Of a stretch of DNA of 64,000 nucleotides, positions 57,576-64,000 are shown in pieces. The position numbers and the translations under genes were made by a program. Location: positions 4,092,001 through 4,156,000 of the forward strand of contig NZ_CP034661.1 in assembly GCF_003971235.1 (NCBI RefSeq), read 5' to 3'. How positions within the stretch are numbered: position 1 is the stretch's first letter; each line of letters opens with the position of its first letter. The stretch is from Chryseobacterium aureum (GTDB lineage: Bacteria > Bacteroidota > Bacteroidia > Flavobacteriales > Weeksellaceae). The notes under the pieces were generated by a model. The model was not told the DNA's origin and did not search any database. It saw only the letters and a list, made by a program, of their open reading frames with translations.

Positions 57576-58427
57576 TTATTTTTTCAGAGAATGGCCTCTA
57601 TTGGTTTTGTAAAAGCGGAATAAGTGATCATAAACCACCATTTCAAATAGTCTTTGATGGGAAGTAAACAACCGGTTAATATGCATATGAAAAATGCTTT
57701 TCAAGAAATCCTTTAGTTTTATTTCCAGAAGATTATCCTTTTCCAATTTTGAAAGTTCTTCAGCCTTTAATGCAATTTCAGTGATATTACTTTTTATTAA
57801 ATCTCTGATTTCTTCATATTCCTCAGAATTAATAAACTCAAAGTATTGGGGATAAAACTCATTATACTTTTTCTTTAACTGCGTATTTAGGTTCTTATCT
57901 GCATTGAATTCCGATTTGAAAGCATTTTCAGAACGCTGTGCAAACTCTGTTTTCTCTTCAAGAGATACGTTGAATGCTGATAAAATATGATCTATATACA
58001 ATAAAGAAGTAATGATCTTTTCTTCATCACTGTATTCCAGAAAGGTTAAAATCAATTGACTGCTTTTAAAAAAGAGGTCTTCCGCATATTCTATCGTGTT
58101 TTCACCATAGCGTTCAAGTTCTCTTGAGTAAGTATCCATAATGACAGAAGAGACTTCTCCTGATTCCAGATAGTCTTTAAATAAAGAATTAATCATTGCT
58201 AAGACCATACTGGGGTCAGTTATGGGCTTAAGATTTAATCTTATCCTCAGGTGAGGTTTAGGATCGTTATATCGTATAAAAAACCATTTGTCAATAAGGT
58301 TTTGAATTTGTAATTGCCCTACTAATGGGTCTATAACTTCCTGTAGGATGCTATCTGAAGTTTTGATCCCCGTGTAAACTTTGAAATAGAGCCACTCACT
58401 TCCCGGATGAAATTTTCTGGTTGCCAT
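57576..58427 (-). CDS. thiopeptide-type SpaB_C domain protein (split LanB elimination half)
   Basis: 283 residues. The signature WLYFKVYTGIKTSDSILQEVIDPLV with FFIRYNDPKPHLRIRL at residues 49-63 marks the SpaB_C / thiopeptide-type bacteriocin biosynthesis family. In LanB-type dehydratases this half removes glutamate from glutamyl-Ser/Thr to leave dehydroalanine or dehydrobutyrine. Here it is a separate gene, five bases after the LanB glutamylation half, so the two form one split enzyme. Last gene of the operon. Confidence 0.9.
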   Translation of the reverse strand: MATRKFHPGSEWLYFKVYTGIKTSDSILQEVIDPLVGQLQIQNLIDKWFFIRYNDPKPHLRIRLNLKPITDPSMVLAMINSLFKDYLESGEVSSVIMDTYSRELERYGENTIEYAEDLFFKSSQLILTFLEYSDEEKIITSLLYIDHILSAFNVSLEEKTEFAQRSENAFKSEFNADKNLNTQLKKKYNEFYPQYFEFINSEEYEEIRDLIKSNITEIALKAEELSKLEKDNLLEIKLKDFLKSIFHMHINRLFTSHQRLFEMVVYDHLFRFYKTNRGHSLKK

Positions 58428-58432
58428 CTTAT

Positions 58433-60628
58433 TTATAGGTCTTTATAAAGAGTGAAAACGAACTGATGAATATAATCTGACTGATCATTATACAGAAACT
58501 CCTCAATAAAAATTTGTTTTTCATTTTTTACAGATGATAAAAACATTCGAATCAAATCATAATTTTTCAGATTGACCGCCAGTGTATGATCTCCTTTTAC
58601 CCACTGAACCCATTGTGGAATGTGTTTTAGTTTTCTCCATTCTTCAATCTTTTGAAGCAGAATATCATTTTCATCAGATTGAATCAATGACCCGAAATAC
58701 TGAATATGTTCAGGATCAATTTTCCATCGTGCTTTAGACAAAATAATGTTTTGATATTCAACTCTTGGGAGAAAATCATAGATATGGGATAGCCCACCCC
58801 AGTTAAATGATAAATAAGATTTTACATTCTGATTGTTATAATCACATAAAAAATGATAGACAGGCAAAGAGTTGTTTGAATAATTATGGGCATTTGTAAG
58901 ATGAGGAATAACTTCCTTGTTGTACTTCTTTGACCTTAGAAATAACCGGCCGTTCTTGATGGACAGATACAAATCTTCTACAAGAATCTGATTGTCTTTT
59001 TCTAATGCAGAACTGGCCAGATAAGGGATTTCATATTCTCTCAGAGAAGGTCTTCTGATCACATTTCCAATTCGGGATTCAGGTAAGTGTACAATTTCTG
59101 CCAGAATTTTGTCCGGATTAAGTTCCTGTTCTTTTTCAGCAATGGTTTTCACTAAATCTTTTACGGATGATTTTTCTGAACAGAATCTGCCCAGTAATTT
59201 TCCGGCATTTCCACCAGCAGATTGTACAGATAATTTTTCCTGCAGGTTGTCTGAAATGACTTCAGCCATAACGGACAATGTATCTGGCAGTTGATCCCAT
59301 TGTTCCTCAAAACCTTTAAAATCATCATCAGTTAAATGGATTACATGATCTTTATTCCAGTAAGCTTTTTGTAATTTCTGATTAAGGATGATTTGTACCG
59401 GATTGAGATGTACCTGAATTTCTTTTTTCTGGTGAGATGACGGCAGGATTAAATCTTCAAGATAGGGATGAACTCCTTTGGCCTGAGTATCCTGTACATA
59501 GCCAATCCCTATTTCAGGATCTAAAGCATAAGATAAAGGTACTTCCTGGCTTTCAAATCTTTCCTGAAAAGCTTTTTTAAATTTTTCTAAAGCAGTTTCT
59601 TTGGAAGGAACGGCAATTTTATTCAGAAAAGAGATTCCTTTTTTCAGTTCTTTTTTCCATTGATAGGATAAGTTTGTTTCCTCTTCAAAATAAAGATCTG
59701 TCTGGAAAAGGTATTTTTTTTCATATTGTACATTCAGTTTTTTGATGAGTTTTTCAATTTCAGAATAAGAGGCTGCTGTATTTCCAAAATGGAGGTCAAG
59801 TTCATTTAGCTTGTTTCTGAGGGCAGCTAAAATCTCTTTTTCCTGATGGGCACCTATTCTGTTTAAAATGGAAACTATTACTTCCAGAAAATCACCTCCT
59901 GAAACGGTAGGATTAAGTTCACTTACCAGAACCTGATTTTCGATAAGTTCATTAATAAATTCCTGTGCTTCTTCAAAGGATATTTCTTCCTGAACAAGAG
60001 GAATAGCAAGCTCGTCAATGGTTTTACCTGTTTCTGAAAATTGTAGGATAAACTCTAATGCTTCGGAAACCGGAGCGGAAGATATGATGTAATCTCTTTT
60101 TCCTCCTGTATTTTCATATTCTACAAAACGGATTTTATTTCCAATTTTATGAATGCTGTTATTAGGGAAAAAAGAAATATTGTTTTTAATATGCGGCACG
60201 GAAAGAAGCTGTTCTGATAGCGCCACCAAAAAATGCATATCCAGCTTTGTGTCTCTTACTTTTGTATGCTCTGAGAATACCGGAAACAGGGTTTCCTTTT
60301 CAAATTTTCCGGTACTTACTCCTGAGAACAGCCCAAATGGGGTACACCGGGTACTTGTACGGTTATAATATTTGAGCAGTGAGCTTTCAGTTCTTTTGTG
60401 CAGGGGCTGATCACCCAACAACTCATTGTGTGCATACTTTTCTATCTCCTGATACAAAGAAAGAGAAGCTAAATAAATGGCTTCTCTAAAAATCTTGTTG
60501 TTATAATATTTTTCTAGATTTCCGTTGGCTGCATTTTCACCGGAAAAATTATTCTGAAATTCTTTGTAAGAAAAAAGCGGTGCTCTTACAACGAATTTGT
60601 CAAAAAACTGAAAGGGGAAACGTGGCAT
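58433..60628 (-). CDS. LanB-type lantibiotic dehydratase, glutamylation half
   Basis: 731 residues. N-terminal PRFPFQFFDKFVVRAPLFSYKEF and the segment RTSTRCTPFGLFSGVSTG at 90-107 are diagnostic of LanB. The enzyme transfers glutamate from Glu-tRNA to Ser/Thr of the precursor. The C-terminal elimination domain is missing and is supplied by the next gene. Its ATG overlaps the stop of the hydrolase gene (TAATG), so translation is coupled. Together with the precursor this would make a dehydrated peptide; no LanC cyclase is present in the window. Confidence 0.92.
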   Translation of the reverse strand: MPRFPFQFFDKFVVRAPLFSYKEFQNNFSGENAANGNLEKYYNNKIFREAIYLASLSLYQEIEKYAHNELLGDQPLHKRTESSLLKYYNRTSTRCTPFGLFSGVSTGKFEKETLFPVFSEHTKVRDTKLDMHFLVALSEQLLSVPHIKNNISFFPNNSIHKIGNKIRFVEYENTGGKRDYIISSAPVSEALEFILQFSETGKTIDELAIPLVQEEISFEEAQEFINELIENQVLVSELNPTVSGGDFLEVIVSILNRIGAHQEKEILAALRNKLNELDLHFGNTAASYSEIEKLIKKLNVQYEKKYLFQTDLYFEEETNLSYQWKKELKKGISFLNKIAVPSKETALEKFKKAFQERFESQEVPLSYALDPEIGIGYVQDTQAKGVHPYLEDLILPSSHQKKEIQVHLNPVQIILNQKLQKAYWNKDHVIHLTDDDFKGFEEQWDQLPDTLSVMAEVISDNLQEKLSVQSAGGNAGKLLGRFCSEKSSVKDLVKTIAEKEQELNPDKILAEIVHLPESRIGNVIRRPSLREYEIPYLASSALEKDNQILVEDLYLSIKNGRLFLRSKKYNKEVIPHLTNAHNYSNNSLPVYHFLCDYNNQNVKSYLSFNWGGLSHIYDFLPRVEYQNIILSKARWKIDPEHIQYFGSLIQSDENDILLQKIEEWRKLKHIPQWVQWVKGDHTLAVNLKNYDLIRMFLSSVKNEKQIFIEEFLYNDQSDYIHQFVFTLYKDL

Positions 60629-62853
60629 TAATTAAGAGAAATAGGGATTTCTATAAAGCTGTTGTTGTAAAATTTTATTTCCATAGGGGCAGCAGCATCT
60701 TTAATAGTTTCTTCACTTACCTCTTTTCCTGTTCCATAATTGATCTGCATAAGCGGATTTTTTACAGCTCCTAATACTAAAACCAGTTTACTTCCTTTTT
60801 CCATTTTTTTACTTACAAATTCATTATTGGTAACCGTTATGCTTGTTTCTTTGTTCTCACGCAGCAATTTTCTTTTTTCTGAACTTTTTGCATAGCTTGC
60901 TCTTCCATAATAGGTAGATAGCAGAAAATATTTGCCTTCTGTGTTTTGCTCATACAGTTTCATGTATACGTCAACGTCTTTTTTATTAACGGATACATTC
61001 AGATTACCTACAAAATTTCCTGTAAATTCAACAGGTTTTTCAAATGGCTCTGAGGAAAATACAATGGCATCTGAACTGTAAATTTTACTATCCAGTACAT
61101 TATCTTTCTGCTTAAAAAGCTCATCTGCATTAGTCCGGTCTTTAAAATCTACCGTGAGCGGTGTGAAGCTTTTGTCTTTATCTTTTTCTAAAGAAAGCTG
61201 ATGATGGGTGCTGATATAGAATTTTAATTTGTTTTTATCAAAATCATCAATGCTGGAAGTACTTTTCCATTCATTGGTTCCCATTACCTGATAATTAATT
61301 TTATCCTTAAGGAAAGACGGTTTCAGTTTCCCCTTCAGAATATAATCAAACCATTCCATTGTGATATTGCCGATATCCATATTGGCTGCAGAATCAATTG
61401 TATAGCCTTTCAGGTTATTTTTAATATACCCCTGAGCTCCTGAATGATCATAAGGTCCGATAATCAAATAATGATTGGCGTTTTTGTTGTATTTATAATG
61501 ATTTCTGAAATAGTATAACGCTCCCAGCTGATCAGAATCATAATATCCTGTAATGGTGAGAACCGGAATATTGATGTGGGAATAGTCATTTTGGTAAGGA
61601 ATCATTTTCTGCCAGTAGCTGTCAAATGACGGATGCTTTAACCAGCGCTGAAATATTATATTTTTTTTGCCGGCAAGAGAATCTAGCTTGTTAAATGCCT
61701 CACCGCCCTCATACCATTTTTTAAAAACAGAATTCCAATGATCTTCATCTTTGAAGCTTGCATCAAGCATTTTATTATTGGTAACATAGTTAATCCAACG
61801 AAGAGAATAAGAGGAAAAGATGTTATTATTCATAGGGAAATCTACTACGCCAATTCCTACAGACGCCTGCGGAATAATAGTTTTCAAGGCAGGATGTATA
61901 TTTTTAGCGGCTGCCCATTGGCTGAATCCCAGATAGCTGCCTCCAATCATTCCTAATTTGCCGTTGCTCCAGGGTTGTTTTATAATCCAGTCAATGACCT
62001 TATTAATATCTTCCTGCTCATGTTCAAAAGGTTCTATAGCAGCATTGCTCGTATATTTTCCTCTGGGATAAATGTAAACAGAATGATAGCCATAGCTGGC
62101 ATGTACTTTTTGATCATTGACATCCTCTGCATCGGGATAAATGGAATTGACCAGGATGGTAGATTCGGGATTGGTTATTTTTTTATTTAAAACAACTCTT
62201 ATACTGATTTCATTATTGATTAATAAGCTGTCTTTCACCTCGAAGTTCCTGGAGTCGAGTTCTTTCAAATAATTTTTAGCGATATCAAATGTAGGTCCTG
62301 TTACATAGGAGTTATAACTTCTGCACAGCAGTAAAGCTTTTTTCAGATCCACGCTGTCTTTGTTCTCAAAATCATTTTTAAGGGCAGCCAGAATCTCTTT
62401 TTTTGTTTTCTCGGTATCGCCATTGAAATAGCGGGGAAGTATGATCTGTGTTTTTGCCGGCAGACTTTCATATTTTTTCAGGAATTCTTCTTTATATTTT
62501 TCCTGAAAATCTTTCTGAGCACTTTTATTTTTCTGAGCATTGATGTAAATTTCATACTGTGTTCCCATTGCATTAGAAATAATGGGATTACTTTTTCTGT
62601 AAACACTGCGTACTGAATCCAGCTGGCTTAAAGCAATATCATAATTTTTTGCGGCCATACTTGCCCTGAAAAGATTATCATACTTTACTGCCTTGTCTTT
62701 TTCTTTATAATTCTTTTGTATTTCAGAATTTAAATAAGAAATTAAAGGCTGCAGTTTCTCAATATTGTATTCATTAAAATGCTTGATACTTATTTTCTGG
62801 GAAAAAGTAATATGGAATGTAAGAAAAAAAGATAGGGTTAACAGGTACTTCAT
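60628..62853 (-). CDS. secreted CocE/NonD-type (S15-like) hydrolase of the RiPP operon
   Basis: 741 residues. Signal peptide MKYLLTLSFFLTFHITFSQ; then about 190 residues of helical N-terminal extension. The alpha/beta hydrolase of the CocE/X-Pro dipeptidyl peptidase type follows. The nucleophile is Ser306 in IGGSYLGF, acid Asp439 or Asp441 in TGYYDSDQ and His470 in GPYDHSGAQG. A C-terminal jelly-roll follows (FTGNFVGNLNVSVNKKDVDVYMKLYEQN). It is periplasmic or outer-membrane facing, so it probably cuts or trims the exported product or degrades a related peptide. It is the second gene of the operon, downstream of an attenuator. Confidence 0.9.
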   Translation of the reverse strand: MKYLLTLSFFLTFHITFSQKISIKHFNEYNIEKLQPLISYLNSEIQKNYKEKDKAVKYDNLFRASMAAKNYDIALSQLDSVRSVYRKSNPIISNAMGTQYEIYINAQKNKSAQKDFQEKYKEEFLKKYESLPAKTQIILPRYFNGDTEKTKKEILAALKNDFENKDSVDLKKALLLCRSYNSYVTGPTFDIAKNYLKELDSRNFEVKDSLLINNEISIRVVLNKKITNPESTILVNSIYPDAEDVNDQKVHASYGYHSVYIYPRGKYTSNAAIEPFEHEQEDINKVIDWIIKQPWSNGKLGMIGGSYLGFSQWAAAKNIHPALKTIIPQASVGIGVVDFPMNNNIFSSYSLRWINYVTNNKMLDASFKDEDHWNSVFKKWYEGGEAFNKLDSLAGKKNIIFQRWLKHPSFDSYWQKMIPYQNDYSHINIPVLTITGYYDSDQLGALYYFRNHYKYNKNANHYLIIGPYDHSGAQGYIKNNLKGYTIDSAANMDIGNITMEWFDYILKGKLKPSFLKDKINYQVMGTNEWKSTSSIDDFDKNKLKFYISTHHQLSLEKDKDKSFTPLTVDFKDRTNADELFKQKDNVLDSKIYSSDAIVFSSEPFEKPVEFTGNFVGNLNVSVNKKDVDVYMKLYEQNTEGKYFLLSTYYGRASYAKSSEKRKLLRENKETSITVTNNEFVSKKMEKGSKLVLVLGAVKNPLMQINYGTGKEVSEETIKDAAAPMEIKFYNNSFIEIPISLN

Positions 62854-62892
62854 AAAAATAAAAAATCAGTAATTTTTTTCAAAATTACTGAT
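62854..62892 (-). terminator. attenuator hairpin between precursor and processing genes
   Basis: ATCAGTAATTTT (62865-62876) and AAAATTACTGAT (62881-62892) pair exactly across four bases; on the minus strand a run of TTTTTTATTTTT follows. Position just after the precursor stop suggests most transcripts end here, giving precursor in excess over enzymes. Confidence 0.8.
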
Positions 62893-62907
62893 AAAATGTT
62901 GAAATGT

Positions 62908-63084
62908 TTAATGGTTTTTTATTGTCATATCCAGAGTGTCATCTATTGTTCTGTCTACCACAGTATCGTTGTCGCCATTCAAAAGCATTTGATTGCCTCC
63001 TCCGGAGCTTAGCCCTCCTCTTATTTTAGACATTTGAACTTTGTTTAGGGATAATTTTTTTTCTGTTTTTTTAATTTTTTTCAC
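62908..63084 (-). CDS. RiPP precursor with Gly-Gly leader and cysteine-free Thr/Asp core
   Basis: 58 residues from a GTG at 63084: leader MKKIKKTEKKLSLNK then VQMSKIRGG. The LSLNK word resembles the FNLD-type recognition box of class I leaders. The 34-residue core begins LSSGGGNQMLLNG and then carries Thr at regular intervals (DT, DRT, DDT, DMT) within an Asp-rich stretch, ending IKNH. There is no cysteine. A longer frame to 63126 would add 14 residues that overlap a -7-like box. The adjacent LanB pair and attenuator support its precursor role. Confidence 0.85.
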   Translation of the reverse strand: MKKIKKTEKKLSLNKVQMSKIRGGLSSGGGNQMLLNGDNDTVVDRTIDDTLDMTIKNH

Positions 63085-63123
63085 AGCTAAAATAATTTTA
63101 AAATTTCTAAATAAATTGAAGTA

Positions 63124-63131
63124 CAAAGGAA
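63124..63131 (-). promoter_or_regulatory. candidate -7 box of the precursor operon
   Basis: Minus-strand TTCCTTTG differs from TAnnTTTG in one base. It ends 40 bases before the GTG at 63084. Confidence 0.35.
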
Positions 63132-63172
63132 ATTCTATTCCTGTAAATAAAGAATTTATACATGCCGAAATT

Positions 63173-63190
63173 GATAAATTCCGATAAATT
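63173..63190. promoter_or_regulatory. GATAAATT direct repeats, possible activator site
   Basis: GATAAATT occurs at 63173-63180 and 63183-63190, spaced 10 bp (one helical turn), about 45 bp upstream of the candidate -7 box. This is a reasonable position for an AraC-type activator site. Assignment is inference. Confidence 0.35.
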
Positions 63191-63230
63191 TAAATTGTAA
63201 ACTATTGGTTTTTAGTGTTTTGAAATATAT

Positions 63231-64000
63231 TTAATTGAGGGCTTTTATGTAATAAGAAGGAAGTGTTCCTGTTATTTTTTTGAAGGCATTGGTGAAAGAT
63301 TCAGCATTATTGTAGCCAATATCATCAGCAATAGCAGCGATGGTATGCTTTCTTATTTTTTCGTTAGATTTTAGCTCTTCAACAATATAGTTGATCCTGA
63401 GTTCATTCAGATATTGGGAAAAGTTTTTGCCTTTTAATTCATTAACCAGTTTGGAGAGATAATCCCTGTTTGTATCAAATTCTTTTGAAAGAGAGTCTAA
63501 TGTAATATTTTTATTGAGAAAGTGATTCGTCTTTTCAAACTGTTCTATTTTATCAATAAGTATTTTAAATTTCGGATTGGAAGAAAGGTCACTTTTCGGT
63601 GCTTTTTCCTTTCTTTCAATATGAGCGGAAGGATGATCTGTTATAGGAGTTTCATTCTTTTTTTCTTTTTCCGGTACAGGAGTAGCCAAAGGCTTTTCTG
63701 ATAATACTTTTGCCTGCCTTTCATATTCTTTTATTTTCTTTCTGTTTTTTCTGATTACCAATATGAATATTAAAGTAATGAGCATCAGAGACGCTATCAG
63801 CCAGGCATTCTGATGGTTCAGTTTTTCAATTACACCTACCTTTTCTTTCATAAGAAGGGGAGTATCATACTTTTTCAGAATTTCTTTTGAAAGATTTTTG
63901 CGGTTTACAGCAATTATACTGTCGCTATGGATCAGATTATCAATATATTTTAATTGGTTTTTTAAATCGCCTTTCTTTTTATAATAATCGATCAGAATTT
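63231..64000 (-). CDS. TPR-containing AraC-family regulator, 5' end cut by the window
   Basis: The reading frame is open from the stop at 63231 to the window end; the first 50 or so codons visible (IDYYKKKGDLKNQLKYIDNLI onward) look like a TPR repeat. An ATG at 63851 is therefore internal, not the start. A membrane helix (AWLIASLMLITLIFILVI) and a Lys/Pro/Glu-rich linker follow. An AraC-type DNA-binding domain ends the protein (LDSLSKEFDTNRDYLSKLVNEL, HTIAAIADDIGYNNAESFTNAFKKITGTLPSYYIK). Such TPR-membrane-AraC regulators sense peptides or signals in Bacteroidota. It lies directly upstream of the RiPP precursor in the same direction. Confidence 0.88.
   Translation of the reverse strand, partial: ILIDYYKKKGDLKNQLKYIDNLIHSDSIIAVNRKNLSKEILKKYDTPLLMKEKVGVIEKLNHQNAWLIASLMLITLIFILVIRKNRKKIKEYERQAKVLSEKPLATPVPEKEKKNETPITDHPSAHIERKEKAPKSDLSSNPKFKILIDKIEQFEKTNHFLNKNITLDSLSKEFDTNRDYLSKLVNELKGKNFSQYLNELRINYIVEELKSNEKIRKHTIAAIADDIGYNNAESFTNAFKKITGTLPSYYIKALN

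Follow-up and report, generated by a model that had tools for sequence, protein, structure and literature searches.

The window examined here is a 64,000-nt stretch of the Chryseobacterium aureum genome (GCF_003971235.1; NZ_CP034661.1, positions 4,092,001–4,156,000 of the forward strand), and the system in question is a five-gene operon on its minus strand, with a split LanB dehydratase and a short leader-core precursor, of the kind that makes a ribosomally synthesized and post-translationally modified peptide (RiPP). The genes lie in the order TPR-AraC regulator, Gly-Gly precursor, S15/CocE-type hydrolase, LanB-N and LanB-C, just as a preliminary description of this DNA had placed them; the hydrolase, LanB-N and LanB-C genes overlap or are separated by a few bases. 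The C-terminal part of the regulator occupies 63231–64000, its gene continuing to about window position 64961; the precursor (58 aa) is encoded at 62908–63084, the hydrolase (741 aa) at 60628–62853, the LanB-N half (731 aa) at 58433–60628 and the LanB-C half (283 aa) at 57576–58427, all on the minus strand. A strongly conserved noncoding block 5' of the precursor gene (63121–63180, minus strand), seen upon alignment of eight orthologous intergenic regions, is a candidate promoter or operator.

The dehydratase had been seen from the outset as a LanB in two halves, and each half matched its own profile: LanB-N, the predicted Glu-tRNA-dependent glutamylation protein, matched PF04738 (471 bits), and LanB-C, the predicted glutamate elimination protein, matched PF14028 (220 bits) and TIGR03891 (238 bits), the PF04738 and PF14028 matches lying far over cut-off. 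Mutation of Tyr80, Arg83, Arg87 or Thr89 abolished or impaired dehydration by NisB (PMC4341554), and NisB mutants in Arg786, Arg826 or His961 glutamylated but did not eliminate (PMC4979651). Alignment of LanB-N with NisB placed Tyr87, Arg90, Arg94 and Thr96 at the first four of these positions, and Arg63, Arg106 and His247 of LanB-C were mapped to the latter three by motif and spacing. The NisB-essential residues were invariant across 99 LanB-N and 96 LanB-C homologues, excepting the NisB Thr89 position, where Thr was present in 93 of the LanB-N homologues and Ile in 6. Because the catalytic residues are kept, as is required of a class I dehydratase, both partial reactions (glutamylation and elimination) would be expected. 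In several genomes (G137, G086, G088, G047, G145, G051) the LanB-N gene of this LanB clade was stop-interrupted or fragmented, and the system therefore seems to be decaying at times.

The precursor starts at 63084 with a GTG codon, has the leader VKKIKKTEKKLSLNKVQMSKIRGG and the core LSSGGGNQMLLNGDNDTVVDRTIDDTLDMTIKNH, and contains no Cys. Its frame, whose conservation had been proposed as a check, was kept in eight orthologues (GTG in 8/8), and is taken to be real because dN/dS over these orthologues was 0.07 (leader) and 0.25 (core), indicating purifying selection; the homologous start codon in other precursors of the family was mostly ATG. The sample comprised 99 non-redundant loci, from Chryseobacterium and from three further genera of the same taxonomic family; 85 of the loci yielded a recognisable precursor, with 85 unique sequences in all, and the precursor-recognition motif found none in the other 14. 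The family leader is built around EKKLSLKKLQxxKI with Gly-Gly at its end, in agreement with the LxLxKx5L motif, often Gly-Gly-terminated, that was described for the leaders of Bacteroidota class I precursors (PMC7268733). Cores were variable and acidic, with a mean length of 29 residues and at least two Ser/Thr in each; S15-linked cores had about five Thr on average. Two loci, L038 (5209–5636) and L141, had two precursors each. The conserved leader, the variable core, the linked modifying enzymes and a neighbourhood that was alike in 85 loci are those of a RiPP system.

Neither a linked LanC cyclase nor the core cysteines needed for (methyl)lanthionine rings accompanied the dehydratase, as a class I lanthipeptide would demand. 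Cys was absent from 47 of the 85 unique precursors, occurred once in 38, and occurred twice in none; the claim of a Cys-free precursor thus stands for the window clade, whose precursors have no Cys, and fails for the family as a whole. No LanC was found in the window, as had been noted, or near the operon in the C. aureum genome, the only two LanC genes of which are about 0.93 Mb distant, in another cluster, next to a different, full-length LanB and to precursors that contain several Cys. That cluster (L004:2725–12471, at genome position about 3.22 Mb) is a canonical one for a class I lanthipeptide, and comprises the full-length LanB, a C39 transporter, five near-identical Cys-containing precursors, two LanC and a luciferase-like monooxygenase. 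Beyond position 64000, where the preliminary description had advised looking, neither a LanC nor a precursor with Cys that could be assigned to the operon was found; the genes past the regulator are an outer-membrane barrel gene and then a radical-SAM RiPP cluster. Among the 92 Chryseobacterium genomes that carry this LanB clade, 38 had no LanC at all, and the LanC-free genomes with close orthologues of the window operon included G044 (5.6 Mb, one contig), G138 and G116. LanC was within 30 kb of the clade LanB in only 2 of the 92 genomes, each time beside a separate full-length LanB. Since no LanC goes with the operon and there is at most one Cys, no lanthionine ring would be formed; the split LanB, the Cys-free precursor and the lack of LanC together make a non-lanthionine dehydrated peptide the most likely product, which supports the cyclase-free product first proposed, with dehydration as its predicted part.

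The window hydrolase matched PF02129 (128 bits) and TIGR00976 (178 bits), and has a signal-like N-terminus, a helical domain (35–203) and catalytic Ser306, Asp439 and His470, a triad that was invariant in 15 S15 homologues. Its structure model, of moderate confidence, had a helical N-terminal domain joined to a catalytic part like that of CocE, matched the fold of cocaine esterase, and was uninformative on substrate. A secreted CocE/S15 hydrolase, as first described, is correct for the window and incomplete for the genus-wide family, which has S15 or, mostly, S9 prolyl-type enzymes: the linked hydrolase was an S9A prolyl oligopeptidase at 66 loci, S15 at 23, and both at 7. At L043:3590–12875 two tandem S9 hydrolases were seen with an S15 gene downstream.

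The S15/S9 label changed 12 times on the LanB-N tree (at least 9 on well-supported branches) and 14 times on the LanB-C tree (at least 6 on well-supported branches), whereas it changed 2 times on the regulator tree, compared with 13 for LanB-N over the same rows. The core motif T[VIL]x[DN]xT was present in 15/21 S15-linked cores and 0/57 S9-linked cores, and it tracked the hydrolase in 6–8 of 9 phylogenetically independent pairs and never the reverse (median p 0.016). The clearest exchange was a sister pair in one other genus, with S9 and the core DADANIPTGTVPTKKTDQ at L129, and S15 and the core SEGGGTGATGDNDTIKDKTDNTTTTKDVLTLTN at L130. Core Pro, considered as a second correlate of hydrolase type, was rejected; it differed by count (55/57 S9-linked vs 9/21 S15-linked cores) and was not significant on the tree, where 3–5 independent pairs were informative. 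The trees indicate that regulator, core and hydrolase are exchanged as a unit against a constant dehydratase, at least nine times relative to LanB-N; linkage of these neighbouring genes may suffice for this, but we favour a functional match among the three. Action of the hydrolase upon the core is suggested by its co-variation with core sequence. In work of Voller et al. from 2013, cited in PMC10885120, a prolyl oligopeptidase is said to mature class III lanthipeptides. The likeness lies in a prolyl oligopeptidase serving a RiPP pathway; the Chryseobacterium family differs in that the peptidase is secreted, S9 and S15 alternate, and the type follows the core sequence.

The complete regulator (576 aa) has a signal-like segment (6–24), TPR-like repeats that score under the Pfam cut-offs, a transmembrane segment (383–407) and a C-terminal AraC-type helix-turn-helix, and because of this arrangement it is predicted to be a membrane sensor with a periplasmic TPR domain. 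In 82 of 83 scorable loci a TPR-AraC gene lay no further than 400 bp from the precursor; full-length homologues in the C. aureum genome numbered only about 6. The original label of AraC-type regulator was incomplete: the protein, whose gene runs past the end of the window, is a TPR sensor of the membrane, co-inherited with core and hydrolase. Peptide sensing by its TPR domain is plausible.

A C39 peptidase was present in every Chryseobacterium genome with this LanB clade and in 169 of 173 genomes overall; none of the four genomes without it had a LanB of the clade. In at least 35 of 77 loci a C39 gene lay no more than 16 kb from the LanB genes, where chance would give about 1.6%. The C. aureum C39 gene is about 10–13 kb from the operon, inside the neighbouring RiPP cluster, which is on the plus strand just past position 64000 (L003:14353–16999 and L128:713–5192) and holds about five Cys/Trp-containing Gly-Gly precursors, a radical-SAM enzyme, a 305-aa protein without a Pfam match and the C39 ABC transporter. 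Divergent from the regulator is the gene for a 708-aa outer-membrane barrel protein (PF14905; L003:12173–14299), which was 94–95% identical beside five window-clade orthologues, the LanB of these being less conserved (77–83%). This gene was considered as a part of the system and was left out because, although found beside 5 of 7 other window-clade orthologues, it is rare near loci outside the clade. A VKOR/thioredoxin fusion protein recurred near some loci (L038:1376–2902, L049:3786–5297, L055:389–1900) and is perhaps part of neighbouring RiPP export systems.

We consider it reasonably likely that the operon encodes a RiPP system with a class I dehydratase and no cyclase, and that the dehydrated, lanthionine-free product is exported and undergoes processing by the linked hydrolase. 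LanB-N would move Glu from Glu-tRNA onto Thr/Ser of the core, and LanB-C would eliminate it to leave dehydrobutyrine or dehydroalanine, most likely at the conserved Thr of DTVVDRTIDDTLDMT; the peptide would remain linear or, failing that, free of lanthionine. Cleavage at Gly-Gly and export of the core would fall to a C39 transporter, whose gene may lie nearby or elsewhere. The S15 hydrolase, in the periplasm or secreted (at most other loci an S9 enzyme), would trim or degrade the core, and the periplasmic TPR domain of the TPR-AraC protein may sense the peptide and control the operon. The dehydration and C39 export steps draw upon sequence and genome evidence, and sensing is the least certain step. 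Across many Chryseobacterium species the operon probably yields an exported peptide with dehydrated Thr and without sulfur rings, adjoined by a matching sensor and peptidase.

In its working the system resembles the first half of the class I lanthipeptide pathway, without two of the defining features of a lanthipeptide, LanC and core cysteines. Pinensin-type class I clusters of Bacteroidota are similar in having LanB split into glutamylation and elimination proteins and the same leader motif, often ending in Gly-Gly (PMC7268733), but they form lanthionine rings by way of LanC and Cys, whereas in the Chryseobacterium family LanC is not linked and no precursor has two Cys. Goadsporin and the thiopeptides likewise have a split LanB and dehydroamino acids that may persist in the product (PMC10676384); unlike these, the Chryseobacterium operon, by profile matches, had no YcaO cyclodehydratase or azole dehydrogenase among its genes, and no pyridine synthase. 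Linaridins and dehydrazoles (carnazolamide, from Chryseobacterium) also carry dehydroamino acids without lanthionine rings (PMC10676384), but use other dehydration enzymes, that for carnazolamide being LanM-like with an inactive cyclase domain, whereas the window operon has a LanB of the Glu-tRNA type. Searches of the open-access literature turned up split LanBs accompanied by LanC, and other RiPPs of Chryseobacterium, and no description of the cyclase-free family.

Several observations weigh against the cyclase-free reading. The exporter is not encoded in the operon, and dehydration by the LanB pair is deduced here from the genes. The family precursors scored 10.5–17.3 bits with the NCBIfam class I lanthipeptide leader model NF038153 (cut-off 22), compared with 43.6 bits for the unlinked canonical precursor, and S9-linked cores showed no clear enrichment in Ser/Thr over ordinary protein. 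The window core contains no Pro, and so gives no indication of an S15 cleavage site. Finally, because regulator, precursor and hydrolase are neighbours, their co-inheritance may represent plain linkage, with breakpoints before LanB.

Such linkage would also suit an antibacterial, bacteriocin-like dehydrated peptide, where the S15/S9 enzyme would activate the peptide or protect the producer and the TPR-AraC protein would be an ordinary regulator without peptide sensing; LanB-type enzymes are best known from antimicrobial peptides, and a hypervariable core behind a constant leader is also expected from an arms race. We regard this as unlikely, in that the operon has no dedicated immunity ABC transporter or lipoprotein, the cores are short and acidic, and the membrane sensor is a near-universal partner whose lineage tracks core and hydrolase. 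It is quite improbable that the LanB pair, instead of dehydrating, stops at glutamyl esters or installs another group, or that LanB-C performs a thiopeptide- or pyritide-type cycloaddition, as its placement in TIGR03891, a broad family named 'thiopeptide-type bacteriocin biosynthesis', might suggest: neither a further elimination enzyme nor azole enzymes are encoded in the operon, the elimination residues are invariant, and LanB-C scored 15 with the pyridine synthase model against a cut-off of 325; on this score and the residues, a pyridine synthase function was rejected. Least probable is a hidden lanthipeptide, in which an unlinked LanC, such as either of the two in C. aureum, cyclises the peptide, or the single-Cys members form one ring with dehydrobutyrine or dehydroalanine, for, although split LanBs of the same genus that are 34–41% identical to the window LanB directly adjoin LanC (G021, G085, G139), the window clade is excluded by having no Cys, unless Cys comes from another molecule, the unlinked LanC genes belong to a complete cluster of their own, and many system-bearing genomes, as counted above, lack LanC entirely.

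Beyond the cyclase-free peptide itself, we tentatively suggest, as a possibility that falls short of an even chance, a genus-wide Gram-negative signalling system in which a membrane TPR-AraC protein acts as a one-component receptor for a ring-free, LanB-dehydrated peptide, and receptor, core and S15/S9 peptidase form a specificity cassette that passes between species upon a constant dehydratase. The agr, ComQXPA and RRNPP-type TPR receptor systems are peptide signalling cassettes, and the Chryseobacterium system resembles them in that peptide, processing enzyme and a receptor-like TPR protein seem to be inherited as a unit, which linkage alone could also bring about; here, in contrast, the TPR-AraC protein is in the membrane, the host is Gram-negative, the peptide would be modified, and binding is putative. 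If the cyclase-free reading is true, class I dehydratases make ring-free dehydrated peptides across a common genus, with neither a cyclase nor paired Cys, and genome mining that starts from LanC or Cys-rich precursors overlooks such peptides. The co-inherited membrane sensor would then make modified-peptide signalling in Bacteroidota, which we judge to be poorly known, directly testable, and dozens of natural cassettes with known pairing exist for swap tests of such signalling.

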